DNA of 64,000 nucleotides, taken from positions 1 through 64,000 of the forward strand of contig CANFKC010000015.1 in the NCBI GenBank assembly GCA_947447265.1, given 5' to 3'. This DNA is from Chitinophagaceae bacterium. Its GTDB lineage: Bacteria; Bacteroidota; Bacteroidia; Chitinophagales; Chitinophagaceae. Of this stretch, positions 6,593-56,380 are shown piece after piece. The notes beneath the pieces are model-generated. The model did not search any database and was not told the origin of the DNA. It worked only from the letters and a program-made list of their open reading frames with translations. Position 1 is the stretch's first letter. Each line of letters begins with the position of its first letter. A program made the translations under genes and the position numbers.

Positions 6593-7363
6593 ATGCGCAG
6601 ACAATACAGAGTGCGGGACTGGAATGACCCAAATTGGGAAGCAAAAGTGAAAGAACACATGCAAAGAAGGAATAAGAACCGTTCGTTTGCGGGCATTGCC
6701 GTAGCAATAATCGGGATATTGTGGATGTTCAGTATAGCCTTCAAATTCAATTTTGAATGGGATACCCATTGGCCCTATGTATTAATCATCATCGGTATTT
6801 TAATTGGGATAAAAAACAATTTCAGGAATGCAGCCTGGTGGATCCTGATTTTGATTGGTGGCGTATACCTCGTGGAAGATCTGCCTGGGTTTTATAACTA
6901 CAGCGACTACGTTGTTCCGGGTGCGCTGGTTATAGGTGGTATTGGACTGGCAATTACAAAGCGAAACCATAAGAATGATTGTGCGCCGGGTTTTAAGGTT
7001 GATAACTCGACATCAACAGAAAACAACCTGAACCTTGATGTAACTTTTGGTGGCCGCAAAGAGATGATCACCTCCAAAGAGTTTAAAGGCGGTAATATCT
7101 CTGTGACATTCGGCGGCTGCGAATTAAATTTTATGCAAGCCGATATTGTTGATTCCCCTGCAATATTAGACTTAAAAGTATCGTTCGGCGGTGTTGAAAT
7201 CATTGTTCCCTCACACTGGCATATCCAGAACGAGATCAACCCTTCTTTCGGCAATGTTGAAGATGAAAGAAATATACAGACCGCTTCATCTGTGGAAAAC
7301 AAAAAGGTTTTGATTCTACGGGGTAACTGCTCTTTCGGAAATGTAGAGATCAAGTCTTATTAG
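6593..7363 (+). CDS. LiaF-like membrane protein (LiaI/LiaF transmembrane plus C-terminal LiaF domain)
   Basis: A 256-residue protein. After a charged N-terminus of about 28 residues come three or four closely spaced membrane segments (about 29-47, 57-73, 80-97, 101-120), the DUF5668/LiaI-LiaF-like region. A soluble beta-rich C-terminal domain follows (about 140-256) with repeated FGG and SFGxVE turns, as in the cell-wall-active antibiotic response domain of LiaF. In Firmicutes LiaF restrains the LiaS kinase. Here the gene lies 0.6 kb before a LytS/LytTR two-component pair in the same direction, so an envelope-stress role is plausible (inference). A hairpin terminator follows, so it is not strictly co-transcribed with that pair. 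Confidence 0.8.
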   Translation: MRRQYRVRDWNDPNWEAKVKEHMQRRNKNRSFAGIAVAIIGILWMFSIAFKFNFEWDTHWPYVLIIIGILIGIKNNFRNAAWWILILIGGVYLVEDLPGFYNYSDYVVPGALVIGGIGLAITKRNHKNDCAPGFKVDNSTSTENNLNLDVTFGGRKEMITSKEFKGGNISVTFGGCELNFMQADIVDSPAILDLKVSFGGVEIIVPSHWHIQNEINPSFGNVEDERNIQTASSVENKKVLILRGNCSFGNVEIKSY

Positions 7364-7448
7364 TTGATAGTAAATCGTACAAAGTAGTTAGTAGCTCTTA
7401 AATAAATATTTGTCAGTGCTATCACTTATAAGTGTAGTTAACAATATA

Positions 7449-7490
7449 AACTATCCGGCAACCTTAAATATGTTGCCGGATAGTTGGTTT
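7449..7490 (+). terminator. Terminator hairpin after the LiaF-like gene
   Basis: A perfect 14-bp stem, aactatccggcaac (7449-7462) and gttgccggatagtt (7472-7485), is followed by ggtttt. The stem is strong and the T-run is short. It separates the LiaF-like gene from the DUF4288 gene. Confidence 0.7.
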
Positions 7491-7526
7491 TAAAATTCAG
7501 ACTTTCCACCACTCAATATATATAAC

Positions 7527-7823
7527 ATGAAGTCATTTACCGCTCAAATCATTTACCGGATAGAATGCGAAGGACTACCGACTGACCAATATGAGGAGCA
7601 ATGGCGCCTTGTGTATGCAGACGATGAGATAAACGCGCTAGGCGAAGCAAAAAAAGCCGGAATGGGCGAAGAAGCTACATTTATTGACAGGCATGGTCGC
7701 ACTATTTGCTGGCGTATGCTGGCTGTAAAAGATCTGCGGCCAATAGAACTGACCAATGGAGGCTTGCTTTTTTCGATGGTTCGCGAACCCGAAATGGTTG
7801 CGGCTCCCCTTTGGATGGCCTAA
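7527..7823 (+). CDS. DUF4288 domain protein
   Basis: A 98-residue soluble protein resembling the DUF4288 family: N-terminal strand FTAQIIYRIEC, then EEQWRLVYADDEINALGEAKKAGMGEE, then the second strand pair CWRMLAVKDLRPI. The family has no known biochemical function. It lies between the LiaF-like gene and the LytS kinase, each separated by about 160 nt, all on the plus strand. Confidence 0.65.
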   Translation: MKSFTAQIIYRIECEGLPTDQYEEQWRLVYADDEINALGEAKKAGMGEEATFIDRHGRTICWRMLAVKDLRPIELTNGGLLFSMVREPEMVAAPLWMA

Positions 7824-7984
7824 GCAATTAATAATCAACAGTTAATATTCAGAGTCAACGCCAATGCGGCGGGGCTGGTTTAAAAACTTTGCAACTTAAC
7901 AGCAACAAGCACTTTACAGAGTTATACTTCGCTGCATCGCTCAGCATATCCTTTCTTATTATTTAGCATTACCTTACATACAGT

Positions 7985-9040
7985 TTGAGGCTCATCAATA
8001 AAAATATTCACTGGATCGTTTTGCTACTCGCATTTGCGGGCCTGGCCATACACTTGTATATACTGCATGGTATTTTTGGATTTATGTGGGGCATCGCATT
8101 ATCCGATTCCATTTGCAGCATGGCCTTGATGAGCCTTTCGTTATGGATTGCAATACTGCTTATAAGAACCTATCCTACCAAGGTTACCCTATTTACTTAT
8201 TCTGTTTTTATTGCACTGGTACTTGGGATCTTAACCGTATATATTGAATGGCATACACTCAAATGGTGGGTAAGGCAAGAAAATAACCCGAATTATGTTG
8301 GCTGGGCCTACTACCTGGGCTGGCTGGAAAGCACCTTGCACATCCGCTTTTTGATTACCTGGATATTTTACAGCTGGATTGCGACCAATGCAGCGTTGCG
8401 CAAAAACATTACGGAACTGGACGCAAGGTTTCAGCACCAGACCGACGCTGCCATTTTGCTGCGCGATGCAGAACTTTTCAAGCTAAGGCAACAACTGCAG
8501 CCGCATTTCTTATACAATAGCCTGAATTCTATCAGCGCACTAGTAATGATTTCTCCCGATCGTGCGCAGGAAATGATTGGTAAACTCTCTGATTTTTTGC
8601 GAAATTCAGTAAAAAGAGAGTCGGAAGATAAAATCACTATCAACGAAGAATTACTTTACATAGAATCCTACCTTGCCATAGAGTCAGTCAGGTTTGGAGA
8701 CAGGTTGCAGATTAAATTTGAAAAGCAATTCAACAACGATGCAACCATTCCCCCTTTCCTTTTTCAGCCCATACTTGAAAACGCAATCAAGTTCGGACTG
8801 TATAGCAAAACAGGCACTGTAGAAATTAAAATCAGCATCATTTCTGATGGGCCGATACTTGTACTTTCTATAACGAATCCGTTTGACCCAAATCTGCAAC
8901 CTCCGAGAGGAACCGGTTTCGGGTTAGCTGGAGTCGGACGCCGCCTTTACCTCCTATTTTCGCGGACAGATCTGCTGGAAACATCAAAAGACGAACAAAC
9001 TTTCACCACCACTTTAAAAATACCACAAACCAATGTATAA
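7985..9040 (+). CDS. LytS/YehU-type sensor histidine kinase
   Basis: A 351-residue membrane kinase with four predicted transmembrane segments (about 9-30, 40-60, 68-87, 119-136). A short coiled linker leads to the His_kinase (PF06580-type) domain, where LRQQLQPHFLYNSLNS places the phospho-accepting His at 174. The ATP-binding part has ILENAIKFG and the glycine box GTGFGLAGVGRRL. It starts at a TTG codon. No in-frame ATG lies between it and the second membrane segment. It overlaps the response regulator by 8 nt, which signals translational coupling. The input signal is unknown, and there is no extracytoplasmic domain beyond short loops. Confidence 0.9.
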   Translation: MRLINKNIHWIVLLLAFAGLAIHLYILHGIFGFMWGIALSDSICSMALMSLSLWIAILLIRTYPTKVTLFTYSVFIALVLGILTVYIEWHTLKWWVRQENNPNYVGWAYYLGWLESTLHIRFLITWIFYSWIATNAALRKNITELDARFQHQTDAAILLRDAELFKLRQQLQPHFLYNSLNSISALVMISPDRAQEMIGKLSDFLRNSVKRESEDKITINEELLYIESYLAIESVRFGDRLQIKFEKQFNNDATIPPFLFQPILENAIKFGLYSKTGTVEIKISIISDGPILVLSITNPFDPNLQPPRGTGFGLAGVGRRLYLLFSRTDLLETSKDEQTFTTTLKIPQTNV

Positions 9041-9770
9041 AGTAGTACTTATAGATGACGAACCACTGGCAAGACAATTGGTCCGGTCACTTCTGAAACC
9101 ATATGTCGAAATAGAAGTTGTAGCAGAATGCGCAGATGGTTTCGAAGGTTTTAAAACCGTTCAGGAATTGAAGCCAGACCTCATCTTCCTCGATGTGCAG
9201 ATGCCACGGTTCAACGGGTTTGAGATGCTGGAATTGCTGGATACGCCACCTTCGGTAATATTTACCACGGCCTTTGATGAATATGCGCTCAAGGCTTTTG
9301 AAACGCATGCAATTGACTATATTCTTAAACCAGTTACCAAGGAGCGCTTTGATAAGGCTATGGCCAAATGGCTTGCTACTGCCGCCGAGAAGAAGACTGC
9401 GCCTATAAACCAGGTAATTGAAAACCAGGTTTATGAAGGTTACCAGCACCGCATTGTAGTGAAAGATAACGGCTCTATAAAAATAATTCCCGCACAGGAT
9501 ATTTATTATATAGAAGCGAGTGATGACTACATAAAAATATTCACCAAAGAAGGCAGCTACCTTAAGAAAAGCACGCTTTCGCATGTAGAGCAAACGCTGG
9601 ACCCGCAACAGTTTGTAAGGGTGCACAGGTCATTTTTTGTTCCTGTAAGTCAGTTGTCAAAAATAGAACCCTACGAGAAAGAAAGCCATATTGCCTTGCT
9701 GCATTGCGGTGCCAAAGTACTAGTGAGCAAGAGCGGTATGGCAAAATTAAAAACCCTGCTTGGCTGGTAG
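9033..9770 (+). CDS. LytTR-family response regulator
   Basis: A 245-residue regulator. The N-terminal receiver domain (1-120) has acidic residues DDE at 8-10, phospho-acceptor Asp54 in IFLDVQMPRF, a conserved Thr (FTTAFDEYALKAF) and the Lys of YILKPV. The C-terminal LytTR DNA-binding domain (about 140-245) has IYYIEASDDYIKIFT, the FVRVHRSFFV motif and a final strand. The partner kinase is the overlapping gene upstream. LytTR proteins bind pairs of 9-bp direct repeats, and three such sites lie 1-6 kb downstream at 10728, 13252 and 15955. That makes this regulator a candidate for controlling the NHL genes (inference). Confidence 0.92.
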   Translation: MYKVVLIDDEPLARQLVRSLLKPYVEIEVVAECADGFEGFKTVQELKPDLIFLDVQMPRFNGFEMLELLDTPPSVIFTTAFDEYALKAFETHAIDYILKPVTKERFDKAMAKWLATAAEKKTAPINQVIENQVYEGYQHRIVVKDNGSIKIIPAQDIYYIEASDDYIKIFTKEGSYLKKSTLSHVEQTLDPQQFVRVHRSFFVPVSQLSKIEPYEKESHIALLHCGAKVLVSKSGMAKLKTLLGW

Positions 9771-9943: not shown

Positions 9944-10459
9944 ATGAACATCTTCGTTGGTAATTTGAATCCGGAAACGGTTGCTGAAGGCTTAAGAAAG
10001 TTATTTTCAGAATTTGGTGAAATTACGTCCAGTAAAGTTATTATGGACAATGCTACAGGCATGTCCCGTGGTTTTGGGTTCGTAGAAATGGTTGATCATA
10101 ATGCCTCACAAGACGCCATTGACAATCTTGATTTCAGCTTTTTTGAAGGCAATATTATTTCCGTTAAAGAAGCTAAGCAAAATACCACCCGGCCAGGTCA
10201 GGGTAGCTATGGTAATAGTGGCAGCGGTCCAAGACCTTTCAGGCCACGGACTAATGGCCCAAGGCCGGGAGGATACAATAATAATTCCGGTGGCGGTAGT
10301 TACAACAGGGACAATAATTCCGGTGGTGGCGGTAGCTATAACAGGGATAATAATTCTGGTGGTAGTTATAACAGGGACAACAATTCCGGCGGCGGTGGAA
10401 GCTACAACCGGGATAACAATTCTGGCAGCTATAATTCCAATTTTAATAAGAACTATTAA
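9944..10459 (+). CDS. RRM RNA-binding protein with Gly/Asn-rich repeat tail
   Basis: A 171-residue protein. Residues 1-80 form a single RNA recognition motif with RNP2 (IFVGNL) and RNP1 (RGFGFVEM). The tail (about 85-171) is low complexity, with four copies of SYNRDNNSG separated by Gly runs, similar to glycine-rich RNA-binding proteins of cyanobacteria and plants. Such proteins are single-stranded RNA binders, often linked to cold response in other bacteria. The targets here are unknown. The DNA of the tail is a minisatellite (about 10285-10430) whose copy number could vary. A strong terminator follows. Confidence 0.9.
   Translation: MNIFVGNLNPETVAEGLRKLFSEFGEITSSKVIMDNATGMSRGFGFVEMVDHNASQDAIDNLDFSFFEGNIISVKEAKQNTTRPGQGSYGNSGSGPRPFRPRTNGPRPGGYNNNSGGGSYNRDNNSGGGGSYNRDNNSGGSYNRDNNSGGGGSYNRDNNSGSYNSNFNKNY
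10285..10430 (+). repeat. In-frame minisatellite in the RRM gene
   Basis: Four near-identical units encode SYNRDNNSG plus one to three extra Gly codons, with unit lengths differing by multiples of 3 (about 30-36 bp). Unit sequences vary at third positions, so they are not very recent duplicates. Confidence 0.75.
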
Positions 10460-10509: not shown

Positions 10510-10538
10510 GTGCCATTAACCAAAGTGGTACTAAAAGC

Positions 10539-10700
10539 AGAATGCCCCGCTCTAGCAGGGCATTCTGAATGCGTTGGGTTATTTTTGCAATAGCGTAAAT
10601 AAGTCAGCTAGTGCCCAATGTCCTAAAGAGGAGATAGAGAAGTTCGAGAGGAAATAATTTTGTGTGTGTTATTTTTCTGAACTGAGTGCAAGCTATGTTC
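10539..10700 (-). ncRNA. Candidate small non-coding transcript (hypothetical)
   Basis: On the minus strand, the orphan LytTR-type operator at 10728-10756 is followed by about 150 nt with no ATG-started frame. That stretch ends in a hairpin, AGAATGCCC paired with GGGCATTCT (10558-10566 and 10539-10547), then GCTTTT. This is the arrangement expected of a regulated small RNA. No -7 box was convincingly identified, and the T-run is short, so this is inference. The alternative is a decayed gene with only its promoter left, or a hairpin unrelated to the operator. The remainder of 10460-10872 holds the RRM terminator and nothing else recognised. Confidence 0.3.
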
Positions 10701-10723
10701 AACCACAAAAACAACCAAAAATT

Positions 10724-10756
10724 GTTTACCAACGGTCGTTTTTGTTTACGAACGGT
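10724..10756 (-). promoter_or_regulatory. Predicted LytTR double operator, copy 1 (no gene after it)
   Basis: Two copies of gtttac(c/g)aacggt joined by cgttttt, 20 bp apart. On the minus strand the half-sites are ACCGTTCGT (10748-10756) and ACCGTTGGT (10728-10736). Both fit the published LytTR consensus [TA][AC][CA]GTTN[AG][TG]. The spacer is 11 bp, where 12-13 is usual. It lies about 120 bp past the stop of the 6-blade NHL gene. Confidence 0.6.
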
Positions 10757-10872
10757 AATTTTTTGAGGAAAACAGCACTCATATTATTTTTATTTGAAGT
10801 GCAATAAGTAGCATAAAATTGTACGGGGGTGCCCTTTTCTACCCGCAAATCACCAACTTATTTTACGCTACC

Positions 10873-13185
10873 CTACTCAATTATCATTCTTTCAACTTTC
10901 CGAAAATTGCTACCTACCAACGTTACGAAATAAATGCCGTTGGGAACATCTAGTACAATAGTTGTAGATGTTGCCGGGTTAATATTCATTTCCTTTACTC
11001 TTTGTCCTAGAACGTTGGAAATAATTAGGCCCGCAACATCATTCTGGACTCCCGGAATACTTATTATAAACAATCCATGATTAGGGTTAGGTATAATATG
11101 TACTGAATTTGGGCTTCCGACGCCAACATAATTAATGCCAGCTTTGCAAGATGCATCAGTTCGCACCTTCAATACTAAATATGATGTATCTGTGCCGCAT
11201 GGATTGGAAACAACATATAATATAGTATCCATACCTGTAGCAATCCCAGTAACCAACCCAGCGGCCGAAACTGTGGCAATTGCCGTGTTTTTACTCCACC
11301 AGCTACCACCGGCTATGCTCGCCGCCAGTGCAGTGGTTGCGCCAGGGCAAACACTGTCAACGCCGCTTATCGTGCCGGCTTTGGGCATCGCATCTACTCT
11401 GAACGCATGTAATGCCGTATCTGACCCACAAAAATTCGTGAGTACATATTTTATAGTGTCCCTGCCGACCGCCAATCCGGTTACTGTGCCTGTTGTGGAT
11501 ATTGTAGCAATAGCAGGATAAATACAAGACCAGGCACCACCAATAGTTGAAGCAGCGCATAAAGCCGTTGAACCAACACACAAGCTATCGGGCCCGCTAA
11601 TCGACCCCGCTACAGGCATGCCACTAATTACCATGCTGTGGGTGGCTGTATCTGAACCGCATACTCCCGCTACCACATAGTTTATGGTTACCGTTCCGGG
11701 AGCCACGCCGCCAGCAATACCGGTAGTTGCATCGATTGTTGCCAATGCAGTATTGCTACTCATCCAGCTTCCGCCGGAAACAGTAGAAGCAAATGTAGTG
11801 GTAACACCAACACACAGACTGTCGGGGCCTGAAATAACTCCAGCAGTGGCAACAGGTGCAACACCAATAGCATAAGTGGCAGTATCTGCCCCGCACAGAC
11901 TTGAAACACCATACTTTATAGTTACGGAACCAGCATACACACCTGCAACAATGCCGGTTGCACTCACAACGGCAATGGAAGTATCGCTACTTACCCAAGA
12001 TCCGCCTACAGTGGAATCAGTAAGTATAATACTACTACCTACACAAACATAGGCCGGACCATGTATACGTCCAGGATCTGGAATACTGCAATCTATTCTG
12101 CGCACGGAACAGTTACGGTAGTCGGAAACGAAAATATTCTCATATCTATCAAGCGCTACAGAACAAGGAAAAATCATTGTTGCCGCCGTTGCCAAACCGC
12201 CATCGCCTGTGTAGCCGGCTGCTGTAGAACCTGCAATAGTTGTTATTATACCTGTATTGCTTATCCGGCGCACACAATGATTACCAACATCAGCAAACAT
12301 TATGTTGCCTGCTGCGTCAACTTCAATGCCATAAGGTGCGCCCAAAACAGCCGCAGTAGCTGGCCCACCATCACCAGCATAGCCGGTAGTGCCGGCCGTG
12401 CCTGCAATTGTACTTATTATACCCGATGTGTTTATTTTCCTGATTACCGAACTGTATACCTCCGAAACGTAAACATTTCCTGAAGCATCGATAGCAATTC
12501 CATTAACGCCATCAAAACCGGCTGCAGTAGCCGGACCGCCGTCGCCGGAAGTACCCGTAGAACCATTACCTGCAAATGTGGAGATAATTCCCGCTGGTGT
12601 CACTTTCCTTACCCTGTTATCTGAAATATCAGTTAGATAAAGATTACCCGTAGCATCAAAAACAATTGCCTTAACCCCCTTTATTTTAGCGGCAGTAGCG
12701 GGACCACCATCGCCGGTGTAACCAAAAGAGCCAAGTCCTGCGTAGGTACTGATTACACCGCTGGTATTCACCTTTCTTACCCTGTAATTGGCATAGTCGG
12801 CTATATACACATTACCGGCGGTATCGGTAGCTATATCAGTTGCAGTACGCAATTGTGCCGCCGTTGCCTGACCGCCGTCACCACTGAAGCCAGCAGTAGC
12901 AGTACCAGCAAATGTGCTGATGATACCTGATGTATTGACCTTTCTTACATGGCCGGTAAGATCAGAAATATAATAATTACCGGAACGGTCAAATGCAATA
13001 CCATTTGGCCAGACCAATACTGCGGCAGTGGCATGCCCACCATCGCCATAGGCCCCGGAACCAGCGCTATAACCATTGCCTGCTACTGTATTGATTATTT
13101 GTGCGGGAACATGATATGATGCACCCAGCAAAGCAAGCAAAATAATAGAAAACAGGCATCGTGAATGGTTGAAACAATGTTTCAT
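10873..13185 (-). CDS. Secreted six-blade NHL beta-propeller protein with Big_2 repeats and T9SS tail
   Basis: A 770-residue protein with a signal peptide (about 1-29, ending VPAQ). Six NHL-type repeats (about 30-370) follow, each with the signature GYTGDGGPATAA, and then a strand set such as GNVYIADYANYRVRKV, giving one six-blade propeller. Four Big_2-like Ig repeats (about 372-680) each hold a VCVGS-type Cys and a CG(S/A)DTA-type Cys. The end is a T9SS type A sorting tail (about 695-770, opening IIPNPNHGLF). Such proteins sit on the surface or are released, and are often thought to bind carbohydrate or protein. The precise role is unknown. It is a tandem paralogue of the gene at 13291-15897 and has a LytTR-type operator 66 nt before its ATG. 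Confidence 0.88.
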   Translation of the reverse strand: MKHCFNHSRCLFSIILLALLGASYHVPAQIINTVAGNGYSAGSGAYGDGGHATAAVLVWPNGIAFDRSGNYYISDLTGHVRKVNTSGIISTFAGTATAGFSGDGGQATAAQLRTATDIATDTAGNVYIADYANYRVRKVNTSGVISTYAGLGSFGYTGDGGPATAAKIKGVKAIVFDATGNLYLTDISDNRVRKVTPAGIISTFAGNGSTGTSGDGGPATAAGFDGVNGIAIDASGNVYVSEVYSSVIRKINTSGIISTIAGTAGTTGYAGDGGPATAAVLGAPYGIEVDAAGNIMFADVGNHCVRRISNTGIITTIAGSTAAGYTGDGGLATAATMIFPCSVALDRYENIFVSDYRNCSVRRIDCSIPDPGRIHGPAYVCVGSSIILTDSTVGGSWVSSDTSIAVVSATGIVAGVYAGSVTIKYGVSSLCGADTATYAIGVAPVATAGVISGPDSLCVGVTTTFASTVSGGSWMSSNTALATIDATTGIAGGVAPGTVTINYVVAGVCGSDTATHSMVISGMPVAGSISGPDSLCVGSTALCAASTIGGAWSCIYPAIATISTTGTVTGLAVGRDTIKYVLTNFCGSDTALHAFRVDAMPKAGTISGVDSVCPGATTALAASIAGGSWWSKNTAIATVSAAGLVTGIATGMDTILYVVSNPCGTDTSYLVLKVRTDASCKAGINYVGVGSPNSVHIIPNPNHGLFIISIPGVQNDVAGLIISNVLGQRVKEMNINPATSTTIVLDVPNGIYFVTLVGSNFRKVERMIIE

Positions 13186-13251
13186 AATAGCGTATATTTT
13201 AAGATGTGCCGAAAAAATACGTGGAATAATTTCAAATACCTAAAAAAAGTA

Positions 13252-13280
13252 ACGAACGGTCGTTTTTGTTTCTGAACGGT
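13252..13280 (-). promoter_or_regulatory. Predicted LytTR double operator, copy 2
   Basis: Minus-strand half-sites ACCGTTCAG (13272-13280) and ACCGTTCGT (13252-13260), 20 bp apart, with the same AAACAAAAACG spacer as the other copies. It lies 66 nt upstream of the ATG of the six-blade NHL gene. A TATTTGAAATT block follows about 53 nt before the ATG and matches TATTTGGAATT at the same place ahead of the 12-repeat paralogue. Confidence 0.65.
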
Positions 13281-13290
13281 CGAAAGCAAA

Positions 13291-15897
13291 TTAATCTACT
13301 ACTATTTTTATAGTGTAACGCTCCCCTGATGCTGCCGCTGCAATAAAATAAATACCTGGCGCAACGTTTAGAAATACATCAGTAGTTTTATTGGGCTCAA
13401 GACTTAGTTCCTTTACTTTTTGGCCAACAACATTGGTTATAATAATTGCAGCCGATTCAGAAGTTACACTGCGGAAATTGATAGCGAACGAGCCTTTGCT
13501 AGGATTAGGATAGACGTTAAGGCCATTACCAGCAATTGAAAGATTGGAAATACCAGTGTTACAGCCCTCGTTGTAGCGAATTGTTATTATAAAAAATGCG
13601 GTATCAGTGCCACAGCCGTTTGTAACAATATACATGATGGTGTCAATACCCGGAGCGACACCTGTAACAACACCAGCGCCTGATACTGTCGCTATGGCGT
13701 TGTTGCTGCTTAACCACGTGCCGCCACTCGCAGTAGAAGTGAGTGTTAGAGACGCATTGCTACAAAGCGAATCTTTCCCCAATATTCTGCCGGCAGAAGG
13801 TAGCGGGCACGGACTGATTTTCCTGATTATGTTATTGGCATTTTCCGCGACATACAGGTTGCCAGCGGCATCAAATGACAGCCCAACAGGATAAATGCAC
13901 CTACCTGCGGTTGCAGGGCCGCCATCCCCGGTATAGCCGGCTATATCAGAGCCAAAGATAGTAGTGATCACTCCTCCAGATACCTGTCTTACGCGGTTAC
14001 TACCCTGATCGCAAAACAGCAGGTTGCCGGCCGCATCCAGACGTATGCCACAGGGATAGGAAATGAGCGCTGCGGTAGCGGGACCTCCATCACCAGCAAA
14101 ACCCATAGTGCCGTTCCCCACAACCGTGGAGATAATACCTGTTGTACTTACTTTTCTTATCCGATTATTGTTAAGGTCAGAGATGTATAGATTGCCAGTG
14201 GCATCGACGGCTATGTTCCAAGGCTGGTCAAGCTGAGCAGCCGTAGCCGGTCCACCATCGCCACTAAACCCTGCTGTACCGTTGCCCGCTACAGTAAATA
14301 TAATGCCTGCAGCATTTATTTTTCTTATCTTATTATTGTATAGTTCCGCAATATAGACATTACCCATATTATCTACGGCCATGCCCACCGAACCATTTAG
14401 CACTGCAGCTGTTGCGGGTATGCCATCGGCAGCCGACGTGCCCTGGCCCGCAATTGTGGTGATTACTCCAAATGTATCGATCTTGCGTATGTGTCCATAG
14501 CTTGCGTCTGTAACATAAACATTGCCGAAAGTATCTGCGGCCACAGCCAGTGGTTCGCCAATATCAGCTGCCGTTGCGGGACCGCCATCGCCCGTATAGC
14601 CAAAGGCACCTGTACCAGCAATTGTGGTAATAATACCTGAAGCGGAAACCTTTCTTACCCTCGGGTACATTTCCTCGCCAAAATACAGATTATCACGGCG
14701 GTCATGAGTCACAGATAGTGGATAGAACATTTCTGCACTGGTGGCCGGCCCGCCATCGCCTGCATAACCAGGGTGCCCTATACCAGCAACTGTACTTATT
14801 ACACCTGAAGTATTAACTTTCCGAATCCTTTGATTCTGGTAATCAGAGATATACAGGTTTCCAGTCCCATCTACCATCACACCTATCGGGTAAAACAATC
14901 TGGCGGTTGTAGCAGCCATTCCGTCGCCATAATAACCTTCGTTACCTGCGCTGCCTACTACCGTAGTAACAATACCCGATGTATTTACCTTCCTTACCCT
15001 ATGGTTTCCGAAATCAGCAATGTAAAGATTGCCACTCGCATCAAAGGCTAACCCTTCAGGCTGGTAAAACTTAGCGGCAGTTGCAGGCCCGCCATCCCCA
15101 CTAAAGCCCCAGGTACTGCCCGCATAGATAGAGATAATACCCGATGTGCTTACTTTTCTTACCCGCTCATTAAAAACATCTGCAATAAAAACCTCCCCGG
15201 CAGCATTCACCGCAATACCTCCTTGTCCGTTGAGTTGTGCATTGGTTGCTGGGCCACCATCACCTGCAATGCCACTCGTGCCATTACCTGCAATAGTCGA
15301 AATAATACCCGATGTGTTTATCTTCCTTACCCTATGGTTATTGCCGTCAGAAAAAAGGATATTACCGGAAGGGTCAACAATTATGTTACGCGGGTAGTTG
15401 AGTAGCGCCGCCGTAGCCGGGCCACCATCACCTCCAAACCCTACTGTACCGGTACCTGCAATGGTTGAAATAATACCGGCTGCGTCTACCTTTCTGATGC
15501 TGGCGCTATTCATGGAGCTTATATAAAGCTGACCCGAAGCATCAATTGCAACGCCGAAAACCTCACCGATTGCTGCGGCCGTTGCAGGCCCGCCGTCGCC
15601 GTTTATGCTATCAATGCCAGTTCCGGCAATTGTGGAGATGATGCCGGTTGTATTTATTTTCCTTACTCTGAAATTTGAAAAATCAGCAATATATAAATTG
15701 CCACCGGCATCCATAGCTGTAGTGGTTGGCATGTATAACTCTGCTGCTGTGGCTGGTATGCCGTCCGCATTATAACCGCAGCCACCTTGCCCTGCAAAAG
15801 TGCTGAGTACTTGAGCATGAACCAAGTTTATAGTACAAGCAGATAGCACTGCAAAAACTAAAAGTGCATGTCTGAGGAATATGTGGTTTCTTTTCAT
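13291..15897 (-). CDS. Secreted twelve-repeat NHL beta-propeller protein with T9SS tail
   Basis: An 868-residue protein with a signal peptide (about 1-28, ending LVHAQ). It has twelve NHL repeats (about 29-700) with the (F/Y)xGDGGPATAA signature and a conserved second half IRKVNTSGIISTIAG, enough for two six-blade propellers. One Big_2-like repeat (about 705-785, with LCSNA and NGCGTDTA) is followed by a T9SS type A tail (about 795-868, opening VYPNPSKGSF). The NHL block has exactly twice the repeat number of the downstream paralogue, while the Big_2 block is shorter (one versus four). It probably acts at the surface. Its ligand is unknown. A LytTR-type operator lies 57 nt upstream. Confidence 0.88.
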   Translation of the reverse strand: MKRNHIFLRHALLVFAVLSACTINLVHAQVLSTFAGQGGCGYNADGIPATAAELYMPTTTAMDAGGNLYIADFSNFRVRKINTTGIISTIAGTGIDSINGDGGPATAAAIGEVFGVAIDASGQLYISSMNSASIRKVDAAGIISTIAGTGTVGFGGDGGPATAALLNYPRNIIVDPSGNILFSDGNNHRVRKINTSGIISTIAGNGTSGIAGDGGPATNAQLNGQGGIAVNAAGEVFIADVFNERVRKVSTSGIISIYAGSTWGFSGDGGPATAAKFYQPEGLAFDASGNLYIADFGNHRVRKVNTSGIVTTVVGSAGNEGYYGDGMAATTARLFYPIGVMVDGTGNLYISDYQNQRIRKVNTSGVISTVAGIGHPGYAGDGGPATSAEMFYPLSVTHDRRDNLYFGEEMYPRVRKVSASGIITTIAGTGAFGYTGDGGPATAADIGEPLAVAADTFGNVYVTDASYGHIRKIDTFGVITTIAGQGTSAADGIPATAAVLNGSVGMAVDNMGNVYIAELYNNKIRKINAAGIIFTVAGNGTAGFSGDGGPATAAQLDQPWNIAVDATGNLYISDLNNNRIRKVSTTGIISTVVGNGTMGFAGDGGPATAALISYPCGIRLDAAGNLLFCDQGSNRVRQVSGGVITTIFGSDIAGYTGDGGPATAGRCIYPVGLSFDAAGNLYVAENANNIIRKISPCPLPSAGRILGKDSLCSNASLTLTSTASGGTWLSSNNAIATVSGAGVVTGVAPGIDTIMYIVTNGCGTDTAFFIITIRYNEGCNTGISNLSIAGNGLNVYPNPSKGSFAINFRSVTSESAAIIITNVVGQKVKELSLEPNKTTDVFLNVAPGIYFIAAAASGERYTIKIVVD

Positions 15898-15950
15898 GTG
15901 ACGTAGTTAAGAACTCAATATCATACAAATATCATACAATTCCAAATATT

Positions 15951-15983
15951 GTTTACGAACGGTCGTTTTTGTTTACCAACGGT
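15951..15983 (-). promoter_or_regulatory. Predicted LytTR double operator, copy 3
   Basis: Minus-strand half-sites ACCGTTGGT (15975-15983) and ACCGTTCGT (15955-15963), 20 bp apart. The sequence matches copy 1 except that the two variable bases are swapped. It lies 57 nt before the ATG of the 12-repeat NHL gene and just past the engB stop codon. Confidence 0.65.
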
Positions 15984-35959: not shown

Positions 35960-36030
35960 TAGTCCGACCTGGATTCGAACCAAGACAAACAGAGTCAGAG
36001 TCTGTTGTGCTACCGTTACACAATCGGACT
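35960..36030 (-). tRNA. tRNA-Gln (anticodon CUG)
   Basis: A 71-nt cloverleaf on the minus strand. The acceptor AGTCCGA pairs with TCGGACT. The D arm is GTGTAACGGTAGCAC. The anticodon stem ACAGA pairs with TCTGT around loop CTCTGAC, giving anticodon CTG (plus-strand 35996-35998). The T arm carries GGTTCGAATCC. The discriminator is A. CCA is not encoded. A terminator follows directly. Confidence 0.92.
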
Positions 36031-39400: not shown

Positions 39401-42400
39401 GTTGCTGCAATATCAGGTGGTACAGTAACTTTCACATACACTGTTACTAATGCCTGCGGTTCTAACTTCATTACCAGGTCATTCACAGTAAACACAACTC
39501 CGGTACTGGGTGCAATAAATGGTACATCACCAATGTGCGCAGGTACTAACGTTATATTCACCGATACAACAGCCGGTGGCGCATGGAGCACTTCTAACCC
39601 TGCTATCGCATCGGTTAATGCTGCTACAGGAAATGTTACAGCATTATCAGTTGGTACTTGTAATATTAATTATACAAAGGCTAACGGTTGCGGTTCAAGT
39701 TCTGTTTCTTTTGCACTTACGGTTACTACTGTTCCAGGTTTACCAGCTGCAATTACGGGTTCAAACTCGGTTTGTACCAGTGCATCTATTACACTATCCA
39801 GCACAACAGGTGGTGGTACATGGGTGAGCGGTAATACAGCTATTGCAACTGTTGACGCAGGCGGTAACGTTTTCGGCGTAAGCGGCGGTTCAGTTAATAT
39901 ATCTTATACAGTTTCTAACTCTTGCGGCACTTCAGCTCCACGTACAAAAACAATTACAGTTAATACGCCTCCGGTTGTTGCGGCAATTGGTGGCACAACC
40001 ACTATCTGCGCCGGTAGCTTTACCATACTTACTGATGGCACATCTGGCGGTGTATGGACAAGCAGCAACACTGCTGTTGCTTCAGTTAACTCGGCTTCAG
40101 GTCGTGTTGATGCGATTACCGCAGGTACAACAACAATATCTTATACAGTTACCAACGGTTGCGGTTCTACTTCTGCAACCAGGACCTTCACTGTAACTAC
40201 AGTTCCTCCTACCCCTCCTGCAATTACTGGTACAACAGCAGTTTGCGTATCAGGTACTACAGCATTGACTGATTCTACAACAGGCGGTGCATGGACTACT
40301 TCAGCTGCAGGAGTTGCAAGCGTAAATGCTGCAACTGGCGTAGTAACCGGTGTATCTGGCGGCACTGCAACTATCACTTATACTGTTACGAACTCTTGCG
40401 GTTCTTCATTCGTTACGACTTCTGTTACAGTTAATACGGTACCTGCTGCCCCTGCAGCAATTGCGGGTGCAACTCAGGTTTGCGCAGGTAGTACAACTAC
40501 GTTTACTGATGCTACTTCAGGTGGCGTTTGGTCTAGTTCATTACCAGGTGTTGCTACTGTCGATGCTTCTTCAGGCGTTATTACTGGTATCACTGCAGGT
40601 TCTGCATCTACTATCTCTTATACAGTAAGTAATGGTTGCGGACCAACCAGTGTAACTAAAACAATTACAGTTATCACACTCCCTTCGGTAGCTGCCATCG
40701 GCGGTTCTACCACAGTTTGTACCGGTTCTACAATTACACTTACCGATGCTACTGCGGGTGGTGTTTGGAGCACAAGCGATGCATCAATTGCATCTGTTAA
40801 TGCTACAGGTGTAGTTACCGGCGTATCTGGTTCTCCAACCGGACTTACTGCTGTAATTACTTATGCAGTAACCAATGCTTGCGGCACAACCAACGCAACA
40901 AGGACAGTAACTGTTATTACAACCCCTGCAATGCCTGCTTCAATCAGCGGCGCTGATTCATTCTGCCTTGGTTCAAGTACTACAATGAGTAGCGCAACCA
41001 GCGGTGGTGTTTGGAGCAGTACCAATACAGGTGTTGCAACAATTAACGCTTCTGGTTTATTAACCAGTGTTGCATTAGGCACTACTACTATTTCTTATAC
41101 ACTTACTAATAGCTGCGGACCTACAGCTGCTACAAAAACGGTAAAAGTTGTAACACTTCCTGTTGTTGCGGCTATCACTGGCCCAACTCTTGAATGTGTT
41201 GGTTCTTCAATTACTCTGAGCAGCGCTACTACCGGCGGTACATGGATATCAAGTAACCCATCAATTGCTACGGTAAGCACTTCTGGTGTTGTAACCGGCG
41301 CAAGCGCAGGTACTGCAGTTATTATATATAGTGTTACCAATATTTGCGGTACTACAATCCGCTCGGTTAACGATACGGTTATCAATGGGTCTGTTAGCGC
41401 CATCACCGGTGCTACCACTGTTTGCGTTGGTTCAACAACTACGCTGAGCAATGCTACAGCTTCTGGTACATGGAGCAGCAGTAACTTCACAATTGCTACA
41501 GTTAACCCATCAACGGGCGCTGTTACTGGTGTTTCTGGTGGCAGTGTTACCATTACTTACAGCGTAACTACCGCTTGCGGCACAAATACTTCAGTTCATT
41601 CAATGACTGTTAACGTACCAGGTGTAGCTGCAATTGCAGGACCTACCACTGTCTGTGAAGCGTCAACTATCACCCTTACAGATGCAACAGCCGGCGGTGT
41701 TTGGACAAGCCTTTCAACTGGTGTTGCCACAATCGATCCTACAACTGGCGTTGTTACCGGCGTTGCTGCTGGTGCTTCAACCATTGCTTATACATTAACC
41801 AACAGTTGCGGCACTTACCAGAGTTTCTATTCAGTTACTGTTAATCCTTTACCACATGCAGGTACTATCACCGGCCCTGTTGTTGTTTGCGAAGCCGCTA
41901 CAATAACTTTGGCTGATGCAACTACTGGTGGCACATGGAGCAGTTCAGATGTTGCAACAGCTACTGTTAATACAACAGGCGATGTTACCGGTGTTGCAGC
42001 AGGACCGGCAACTATCAGCTACTCTGTTACCAACAGTTGTGGTACCGATGTTGCTGTTTACCCAATAACTGTTAATCCACTTCCGGTTGCAGGTACAATT
42101 TCAGGTGCAACCGACGTTTGTGAAGCATCTACAATTTCTCTTACTGATGCTGCTTCAGGTGGCACATGGACATCTGGTTCTCCTTCAGTTGCAGGTGTAG
42201 GCGCTGCAACAGGTATCGTAACAGGTATTTCTGGTGGTACTGCTACTATTTCTTATTCAGTGTCTAATAGCTGTGGTACTGCTGTTGCTACTTATACCGT
42301 TACTGTAAATCCTTTACCGTTCGTAGCTCCTATTACCGGCGTTACTACTGTGTGCGAAGCTGCAACAACTACTTTGGCTGAAGCTACAACAGGTGGAGCC

Positions 42401-55336: not shown

Positions 55337-56380
55337 ATGTACTTTAACAAAAGAAAGGTACTTACCAATGTTCTTTTCGTACTGCTTGGGGGCTCAGTTT
55401 CATATCTGGCTTTTTCAAACAGTTCTCCTTTTGTACGAAAAAACATGCTGCCGGCAGCGACTGCGGCTATTCCTGCTAACCAAAACAGCAATTGTGGCTA
55501 CAGCCTTGTGAGGGGTTTGCCCTCGGGACTCGTCAACCCACTGCTTCTTGTTGACCCTGACTGTGAAGCGCCAAGCTACACTGGGCTGAAAGCTACACTT
55601 CAAAACTATATTGATGAAAATAAGGTGGCAGGCAGAATTACATCTGCATCAGTCTACTTCAGAAACCTGAGCAGCGCTGAGTGGATAGACTGCAATCCGG
55701 AACTTACCTACCATCCCGGCTCACTGGCTAAGTTACCAATGCTTTTCGCCTATCTGCATAAGGCCGAAAACGACCCATCTATACTTAAGAAAACAATATT
55801 TTTCGATAAGGTAGAAGAAGGCCATGTGCATACACAGACCTTTAACAGCAAAGCTATAGTGAAAGGCCACAGCTACACTGTTAGAGAACTGCTCGATTAT
55901 ATGATTGGCTATTCTGACAATGCTGCTACCTACCTGTTAAATGTAAACATGGGCTTTGATCCATACCTTAAAATATATTCCGACCTGCGCCTCAGAGTGC
56001 CTTCAACAGCCAACAGAGACTATGAGATGTCAACAAAAGAATACTCCCGTTTCTTTATTGTGCTGTATAATTCTACCTACCTTTCACAGGAAATGTCGCA
56101 ACTGGCATGTACGCTGCTCAATAATAACGAATTCAATGAGGGTATATTGAAGGGCATACCATCAACCGTTAAAACCATTCATAAATTTGGAGAGATGGGT
56201 GAGGTCAAAAAAAATAGCCATGAGCTCCACGAGTCTGCAATAGTGTTTTTAGATAACAAACCTTACCTGCTTACGGTTATGACAAAAGGCAGCGATAAGA
56301 AGGTGCTACCAGAAATAATAAGTAAAATATCAACACTGGTCTATGAATATGTTCAGGGCGACAAGAAAATACCAGCATAA
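55337..56380 (+). CDS. Beta-lactamase-fold serine hydrolase (class A-like)
   Basis: A 347-residue exported protein with an N-terminal hydrophobic segment (about 8-27). It has the nucleophile motif S-x-x-K (PGSLAKLPML, Ser129 and Lys132) and the SDN motif (GYSDNAATYLL, 193-195) of class A beta-lactamases and related peptidases. The third motif, usually K-T/S-G, reads KFG (283-285, HKFGEMGE). No clear ExxxN omega-loop pair carrying the deacylating Glu166 is visible. It may therefore be a peptidoglycan-active DD-peptidase-like enzyme or an inactive or altered member rather than a drug-resistance enzyme (inference). It follows the gliding-associated gene by 221 nt and ends at a bidirectional terminator. 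Confidence 0.8.
   Translation: MYFNKRKVLTNVLFVLLGGSVSYLAFSNSSPFVRKNMLPAATAAIPANQNSNCGYSLVRGLPSGLVNPLLLVDPDCEAPSYTGLKATLQNYIDENKVAGRITSASVYFRNLSSAEWIDCNPELTYHPGSLAKLPMLFAYLHKAENDPSILKKTIFFDKVEEGHVHTQTFNSKAIVKGHSYTVRELLDYMIGYSDNAATYLLNVNMGFDPYLKIYSDLRLRVPSTANRDYEMSTKEYSRFFIVLYNSTYLSQEMSQLACTLLNNNEFNEGILKGIPSTVKTIHKFGEMGEVKKNSHELHESAIVFLDNKPYLLTVMTKGSDKKVLPEIISKISTLVYEYVQGDKKIPA

Follow-up and report, generated by a model that had tools for sequence, protein, structure and literature searches.

We analysed a stretch of 64,000 nucleotides from a Chitinophagaceae bacterium (assembly GCA_947447265.1, contig CANFKC010000015.1, positions 1 to 64,000; below, the window). It encodes a LytS-type sensor histidine kinase, a LytTR response regulator and two NHL proteins with the tail of type IX secretion system (T9SS) cargo, and it carries three double operators of the LytTR type. 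These operators belong to an element set that is genus-wide and has several kinds of target. We consider it about an even call whether this set is a LytS/LytTR regulon of surface proteins that includes an antisense "sponge" RNA, titrating a second family of small RNAs encoded in arrays.

According to this reading, the three elements would be binding sites for the LytTR regulator encoded at 9033-9770. The regulator, activated by LytS, would occupy the pair of half-sites, 20 bp from each other and directly ahead of a promoter of the Bacteroidota type, and once bound it would recruit RNA polymerase. Two of the operator-promoters would serve the genes of the two NHL proteins exported by the T9SS, and from the third an RNA of about 150 nt would be made, whose core would pair with the invariant 5' domain of the array RNAs and thereby titrate them.

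Double operators joined to a probable promoter

A scan of the window gave three perfect matches to ACCGTTNRK-N11-ACCGTTNRK, all on the minus strand and with a period of 20 bp. One further match, with one mismatch, lies at 42296 within an open frame of 4014 amino acids and is probably due to chance. In 100 dinucleotide shuffles, with up to two mismatches allowed, the mean number of matches was 0.29 and the maximum 2. An initial annotation of this DNA had described the three operators with their common spacer AAACAAAAACG, had placed two of them 66 and 57 nt before the start codons of the NHL genes, and had noted that all six half-sites fit the LytTR consensus as it was written there; the scan bears out all of this. 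It had also suggested that the 11-bp spacer may be a variant of the lineage, but this spacer lies within the published range. LytTR sites are described as two direct repeats of about 9-11 nt, 11-13 nt apart (PMC4847170), and the elements have 9-nt repeats, an 11-nt spacer and one dominant spacing.

This dominant spacing is seen in the whole genome (5.06 Mb, G000), which has 27 copies of the element with at most one mismatch. Exact ACCGTT pairs 10-18 nt apart occur 32 times; 24 of them, including the match at 42296, are spaced 14 nt, and each other spacing occurs 0-2 times. Since the backward control gives 34 pairs spread over nine spacings, it is the single peak and not the total that we count as non-random. 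When part of the spacer was included in the pattern and up to three mismatches were allowed, we found 15 matches, against none for the pattern read backwards. A looser pattern (3 mismatches) gave 31 matches against 7 in the control and matched all 11 genomes of the genus; its excess over the control is small in several of them (7 to 5 in G151, 6 to 5 in G153, 16 to 12 in G154 and 13 to 8 in G089). A random scatter of the motif, which had been named as speaking against a regulon, is not what we see, given the bias in targets and the tie to the LytTR gene described below.

To the taxonomic spread, a scan of the 29-bp pattern over a collection of 84,980 species genomes returned 89 stretches. Among the 80 listed, 76 are titled Taibaiella, Flavipsychrobacter, Chitinophagaceae or Bacteroidetes, and the other four come from Oceanobacillus, Ruminococcus, Salinicoccus and a Gammaproteobacteria metagenome-assembled genome (MAG). 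In a sample of 147 genomes of the family, matches with no more than one mismatch occur in five, namely this genome (27), G089 (6), G079 (5), G088 (1) and G050 (1). In the Gammaproteobacteria MAG (JR-MC-B-240519-102, locus L139) the element stands ahead of a secreted-looking gene of 1346 amino acids, the end of which resembles other T9SS cargo found here; because this gene is of the same kind as in Flavipsychrobacter, the contig may be mis-binned. As a further observation, overlapping matches 20 nt apart (G152 C232:7143-7191 and G089 C76:7953-8001) suggest three successive half-sites at the same period.

We then compared 126 unique contexts of elements with at most one mismatch, the four taxonomically odd loci included. 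Conserved are the half-sites, the adjacent GAA and CG, and then the boxes TTTG and TAnnTT[TG]. TTTG lies at +6 to +12 after the operator in 81 of the contexts, and TAnnTT[TG] at +32/33 in 83, compared with a mean of 0.63 and a maximum of 6 at other offsets; 54 contexts have both boxes. Bacteroidota (sigma-ABfr) promoters have TTTG near -33 and TAnnTTTG at -7 (PMC7366714, PMC6847099), and this is the form found in the element set, with the final G of the -7 box frequently not kept. The copy at 15955 has no clear -7 box at the usual place. From its sequence, the motif thus looks like an operator fused to a Bacteroidota -33/-7 promoter. If the first T of the -7 box is set at -12, the RNA behind the 10728 copy would start at 10683 and the G residues of the half-sites would lie near -50 and -70; in the RgaR-controlled spoZ promoter, the G residues that were tested are at -51 and -72 (PMC10602386). 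It is from this operator-promoter geometry that we infer activation.

A predicted small RNA behind the third operator

The initial annotation had placed the operators around the pair of NHL genes. Two of them do precede NHL start codons, but the 10728 copy sits downstream of the first NHL gene and has no protein gene ahead of it on its own strand. The only open reading frame (ORF) there is one of 122 amino acids, 253 nt away and antisense to the gene of an RRM protein, and we therefore rejected this copy as an NHL operator. What follows it instead is a -7 box, a core beginning CTTATTTAYGC and a terminator (10567-10538). Terminator-like sites in the region number 9, against 6.4 in shuffles, and the predicted RNA, terminator included, folds better than all of 200 shuffles (z -4.8).

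A model of the core, built from 8 sequences, produced 21 hits (E <= 0.01) across 11 genomes. Eleven of these hits have an element on the same strand 135-174 nt upstream (start to start; one element with two mismatches), and three of the eleven lay outside the training set. The remaining ten are one overlap on the reverse strand, four array RNAs read backwards and five hits without an element. In summary, the predicted small RNA stands behind an operator in 10 of the 11 genus genomes, in nine of them by the model and in G147 by position and pairing; in G153, the core model found no small RNA. The genome of Flavipsychrobacter stenotrophus RB1R16 carries both the operator and the small RNA.

Neither this RNA nor the array RNA reached the gathering threshold of any Rfam family; there were only weak sub-threshold matches for the small RNA, and sub-threshold matches with a best E of 0.003 for the array RNA. 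We also considered that the small RNA might be a coding leader and rejected this, as other members have ACG or ACT in place of the ATG in TTATTTATGCC. Because this sole ATG of the core is not conserved, the RNA is probably non-coding. Its 5' part is structured in six genomes and, as modelled, may plausibly contain interleaved helices, i.e. a pseudoknot. In the model 99.4% of cells are paired; double changes occur in 2 of 29 pairs, one of them within the terminator, and 180 of 500 shuffles reach the same number of double-changed pairs. The copies in the window and on contig C51 do not align in the 5' part.

Complementarity to the array RNAs

The backward hits of the core model led to the predicted array RNAs. 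Their units, some 136 bp long, contain promoter boxes, the domain GGGTATATTTTTCATAAGGTGTAAATAAG and a terminator hairpin whose two sides both change. Modelled in turn, the unit matches all 11 genus genomes, usually in tandem. Among 25 distinct units, taken within 3 substitutions, the domain is identical in all 25; a perfect TAnnTTTG lies just upstream in 15, a T-run is present in 23 and a LytTR element in none. There are also copies that have diverged further (L339, L340). Sixteen of the 147 genomes in the family sample give a hit at E <= 0.001. Beyond the genus, only the hits in G097, G046, G069 and G092 are below 1e-7, and the domain could be read in all four with up to a few changes; G033 is a candidate (1.3e-7), and the other hits are weak. 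The best copy in this genome, C10:71405, is 4.6 kb from an element ahead of an NHL gene of about 400 amino acids, and in G149, G151 and G147 a distance of 4.0-4.5 kb separates elements from arrays.

For 11 of the 12 known copies of the small RNA, the pairing predicted with the invariant 5' domain of the array RNAs has an energy of -28 to -34 kcal/mol. They are ten of the 11 found by the model (z -4.0 to -6.8) and the G147 RNA that the model had missed (-30.5, z -5.6, 0 of 1000 shuffles as strong). For the core in the window and the consensus domain the value is -28.5 kcal/mol, again with 0 of 1000 shuffles as strong. Furthermore, when all 127 element-driven stretches are ranked by their pairing with the array domain, the 11 strongest are exactly these RNAs; the next-best partner reaches -26.8 and the median is -17.6.

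The complementarity is also kept where the cores have diverged. Three diverged cores pair better than versions with random bases at the changed places in 1991 (window), 1916 (G154) and 1850 (C51) of 2000 trials, that is, 9, 84 and 150 random versions were equally strong. With changes at random places, the corresponding numbers are 1, 0 and 0 of 2000.

These results bear on a different reading of the RNA, namely that it acts on mRNAs or on the RRM protein and that its likeness to the arrays reflects shared ancestry or a side effect. We regard this as rather unlikely, though it is favoured by the structured 5' part, by the convergent orientation of the small RNA and the RRM gene, seen in six genomes besides the window, and by the fact that other stretches of the window pair equally well with the C10 array copy. 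Against it stand the ranking among the 127 stretches, the pairing kept by the diverged cores and the identity of the domain in the 25 units.

The pairing could, on the other hand, work in the reverse direction, with the array RNAs regulating or sponging the LytTR-controlled RNA as the actual effector. The array RNAs are multicopy, they have promoters of their own without the operator, and they occur in four other genera at the E below 1e-7 given above. Against this, there is only the operator, which marks the LytTR RNA as the regulated partner, and the computed results are neutral on direction. We consider this reversal improbable and keep to the sponge, in which the pairing may amount to sequestration of the array RNAs.

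Proposed link to the LytS/LytTR genes

Is the regulator in the window the one that would bind these operators? Eight genomes with 111 elements (at most one mismatch) were compared. Six of their 8 window-type LytTR genes have an element no more than 1.4 kb away, but none of the 51 other LytTR genes has one within 3 kb. With the three remaining genomes added and G154 counted, the order LytS, LytTR, RRM and an element on the opposite strand is found in 7 of the 11 genus genomes. Because of their shared descent, these loci are not independent events. A close orthologue of the window LytTR is present throughout the genus genomes (76-100% identity); when 22 of the 84 other LytTR loci listed were compared with it, 21 were 27-34% identical and one gave no match. 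Taken together, the synteny supports a link between the element and the window LytTR gene.

The competing explanation is that the elements are operators of another LytTR regulator and that their nearness to this one is inherited gene order without a functional link. The genome does encode five LytTR domains, and window-type orthologues occur without the element, both in relatives and in 4 of 11 genus genomes. However, the contrast between 6 of 8 and 0 of 51, together with the presence of the close orthologue throughout the genus, makes this explanation a poor one in our view, and binding by the regulator in the window the preferred one.

The nearest NCBIfam model to the window regulator is BtsR (PRK11697; YehT) of E. 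coli, but at 183.2 bits the regulator is under the cut-off of 246 and hence not a BtsR member by that test. BtsR has direct repeats of the ACC(G/A)CT type. Autoregulation of the regulator operon was considered and dropped, as we saw no element before 7985 by eye and none was listed there in the synteny survey. The gene order LiaF-like, DUF4288, LytS and LytTR (6593-9770 in the window) recurs in relatives outside the genus: all ten orthologues inspected keep LytS and LytTR, and nine also have LiaF and DUF4288 (the tenth is cut short). The RRM protein scores 87.9 bits with the NCBIfam model Rbp_regulator, under the cut-off of 100. As RbpB of Bacteroides thetaiotaomicron binds a multicopy small RNA family (PMC11697453), the RRM protein is a candidate partner of the RNAs.

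Genes behind the elements

Of the 27 copies in this genome, the one on contig C92 was dropped as a duplicate of that on C57, which has only 69 nt behind it; this leaves 25 readable copies. Cargo of the T9SS kind was called by a crude pattern rule (signal peptide and T9SS-like tail), and 11 of the 25 copies directly precede such genes. If the genome is taken to hold 4,300 genes, the binomial probability of such a count is 2.6e-10 for 150 T9SS genes and 2.2e-7 for 287. T9SS type A sorting tails number at least 150 (150 scored of 287 candidates), which is much cargo for 5.06 Mb, and so only a subset of the T9SS cargo is involved. The hits thus lie upstream of T9SS and NHL genes more often than expected, as had been proposed for a genome-wide scan. 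Nor are they absent at orthologous NHL genes, since similar NHL genes of about 400 amino acids are preceded by the element in several relatives.

The other targets in this genome are a large secreted gene cut by the end of its stretch, a lipoprotein-like gene, a secreted protein of 186 amino acids, an NHL gene of about 400 amino acids (its signal was missed by the rule) and short ORFs of unknown function. Non-protein targets are two RNA genes (at 10728 and on C51) and rnpB, 68 nt ahead; the copy at C6:151008 has no visible promoter or gene. Among all 127 elements, 10 are at contig ends; of the remaining 117, 75 precede an ORF that the same rule marks as secreted-looking and 14 no ORF, and similar genes reappear behind the element in several genomes. 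The original proposal that LytS/LytTR at 7985-9770 controls the NHL surface proteins is therefore strengthened by the operator-promoter look, the bias to T9SS and NHL genes and the position tied to this LytTR, but it was too narrow, as the third operator faces an RNA and there are several kinds of target.

As separate observations, RNase P RNA (Rfam RNaseP_bact_a, 253.8 and 261.5 bits) lies shortly downstream of the elements L162 (G000 C6:67353-67381) and L061, in two genus genomes, where the box TATCTTTG is about 20 nt further downstream than usual. The contigs of L173 (C57) and L177 (C92) end 69 nt past identical elements with identical following sequence, which suggests a repeated stretch behind the element.

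It is very improbable that the element merely resembles an operator and serves instead for recombination or is spread as a dispersed repeat: copies do flank each NHL gene of the tandem pair and two contigs do end after identical copies, but conservation is limited to the half-sites, their short neighbours and the promoter boxes, for which reason we also rejected a general insertion repeat, and unrelated genes are preceded in one orientation at a fixed promoter distance.

Points against the proposed regulon and sponge

Several results weigh against the proposal that the LytTR regulon includes a sponge. On the side of the RNA, its helix 2 never varies and is therefore unproven. One small RNA, on C31 of G154, pairs with the array domain no better than shuffles (-22.4, z -1.4). 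Paired with the C10 array copy of this genome, the window RNA attains -25.0 kcal/mol, and among 3452 overlapping windows of the 64 kb there are 14 that are stronger, the best of them near 55390-55650, overlapping an ORF of 347 amino acids. In the four less diverged cores that differ from the reference, pairing gains nothing from the changes: random bases at the same places are as strong or stronger in 1137 to 2000 of 2000 trials (1137 in G089, 1633 in G152 and 2000 in G149); G151 has no substitution. On the side of the regulator, no element lies beside it in G148, G150, G153 and G155. The first two have no RRM gene there and the latter two have one, and the contig of G153 ends 1.8 kb after LytTR. 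None of the ten orthologues inspected outside the genus has a neighbouring element (up to three mismatches) or RRM gene. Finally, the element is numerous in only 3 of the 147 family genomes, whereas a relative of the regulator (E <= 1e-30) is found in 142.

The boldest form of the proposal is that in Flavipsychrobacter-type Chitinophagaceae LytS/LytTR directly controls a subset of T9SS surface proteins and expresses the array sponge, with the RRM protein, whose gene stands between those of regulator and sponge, as chaperone of the RNA pair. We offer this form tentatively, as somewhat doubtful; the less diverged cores do not support it.

Features of the window

The coordinates are collected in Table 1. 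The sole Rfam match of the window at the gathering threshold is a tRNA gene at 35960-36030 on the minus strand.

Table 1. Positions of the operators, the predicted RNA and the genes around them in the window
Feature	Position	Strand	Remarks
LytS-type sensor histidine kinase gene	7985..9040	plus	Pfam His_kinase E 7.5e-26; TTG start in ORF list
LytTR response regulator gene, proposed operator binder	9033..9770	plus	Pfam LytTR E 2.5e-23, Response_reg E 6.5e-23
RRM RNA-binding protein gene, convergent with predicted RNA	9944..10459	plus	Pfam RRM_1 E 5.8e-19
Predicted LytTR-controlled small RNA, about 150 nt	10533..10683	minus	conserved core; start inferred from -7 box
Intrinsic terminator hairpin of the small RNA	10538..10567	minus	13-pair stem, then CTTTTAG
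Core predicted to pair with array RNA 5' domain	10570..10604	minus	-28.5 kcal/mol with consensus domain
-7 box TAGCTTGC (TAnnTTG form)	10688..10695	minus	32 nt after 10728 operator
-33 box TTTG	10716..10719	minus	8 nt after 10728 operator
Double operator	10728-10756	minus	exact match; faces predicted RNA gene
NHL protein gene with T9SS tail, 770 amino acids	10873..13185	minus	Pfam TEN_NHL, NHL, Por_Secre_tail
Double operator	13252-13280	minus	exact match; 66 nt before ATG of 770-amino-acid gene; TATTTTTT at +32 (13219-13212)
NHL protein gene with T9SS tail, 868 amino acids	13291..15897	minus	Pfam TEN_NHL, NHL, Por_Secre_tail
Double operator	15955-15983	minus	exact match; 57 nt before ATG of 868-amino-acid gene; TTTG at +8 (15946-15943)

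Comparison with known systems

AgrA, VirR and RgaR carry LytTR domains. In the systems AgrA-RNAIII (S. aureus), VirR-VR-RNA (C. perfringens) and RgaR-SpoZ (C. difficile), a two-component regulator with direct repeats ahead of the promoter activates protein genes as well as a small RNA (PMC4963840, PMC10602386). As there, VirR-like or LytTR-like direct repeats lie here upstream of the promoter, and a predicted non-coding RNA gene with its own terminator stands behind an operator. The spacing differs slightly from that of the VirR motif CCAnTT-N15-CCAGTT, which has a period of 21, compared with 20 here. Unlike in these systems, the promoter is of the Bacteroidota type, the RNA is predicted to target a further family of small RNAs and the proteins under control would be T9SS cargo; we claim no sequence likeness between RNAIII, VR-RNA or SpoZ and the RNAs described here. 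In our reading, the layout would be like that of agr/RNAIII and VirR/VR-RNA, but in Bacteroidota and with a small RNA family as the likely RNA target.

Single features have parallels elsewhere. The core 5'-CCGTTCGTC-3' of the AlgR site in Pseudomonas aeruginosa has CCGTTCGT in common with the half-site; AlgR sites, as described in the available part of the report, are not necessarily paired direct repeats (PMC4064291), whereas the elements here have two half-sites at one fixed spacing. In Bacteroides thetaiotaomicron, the RRM protein RbpB and the multicopy, paralogous small RNA family FopS cooperate, which shows such a partnership in Bacteroidota; FopS acts on SusC-type mRNAs, and the available part of the report does not mention an antisense sponge (PMC11697453). 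Bacterial RNA sponges, such as the RoxS sponge of B. subtilis and another from Caulobacter, are regulated RNAs that pair with a small RNA and control it (PMC8216469, PMC12559287). The conserved base pairing predicted in 11 of 12 copies is of this kind, but the RNA here is a predicted one that would be controlled through a LytTR operator and directed against a tandem family. In Porphyromonas gingivalis, PorX/PorY is, in the accounts available to us, likewise a two-component system tied to type IX secretion; it acts on the genes of the secretion machinery, whereas here a subset of cargo genes and RNAs would be controlled.

In titles and the first parts of abstracts on LytTR repeats, Flavipsychrobacter, sponges, LytTR-linked small RNAs, T9SS regulators and Chitinophaga small RNAs, a body of literature that covers few subscription papers and no preprints, we found no description of the operator or of either RNA, which is weak evidence that they are new.

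Significance

For a LytTR system in Bacteroidota, the analysis provides an operator-promoter pattern strict enough to be scanned for. It also points to two RNA families without an Rfam match. One occurs throughout the 11 genus genomes and in a few further genera of the family; the other is antisense to the first and is predicted to be under the operator. The predicted contact between the two RNAs is testable, and with Flavipsychrobacter stenotrophus RB1R16 a named strain of the genus is at hand. If the proposal is true, Bacteroidota would have an RNAIII-like layout whose effector RNA acts on other small RNAs.

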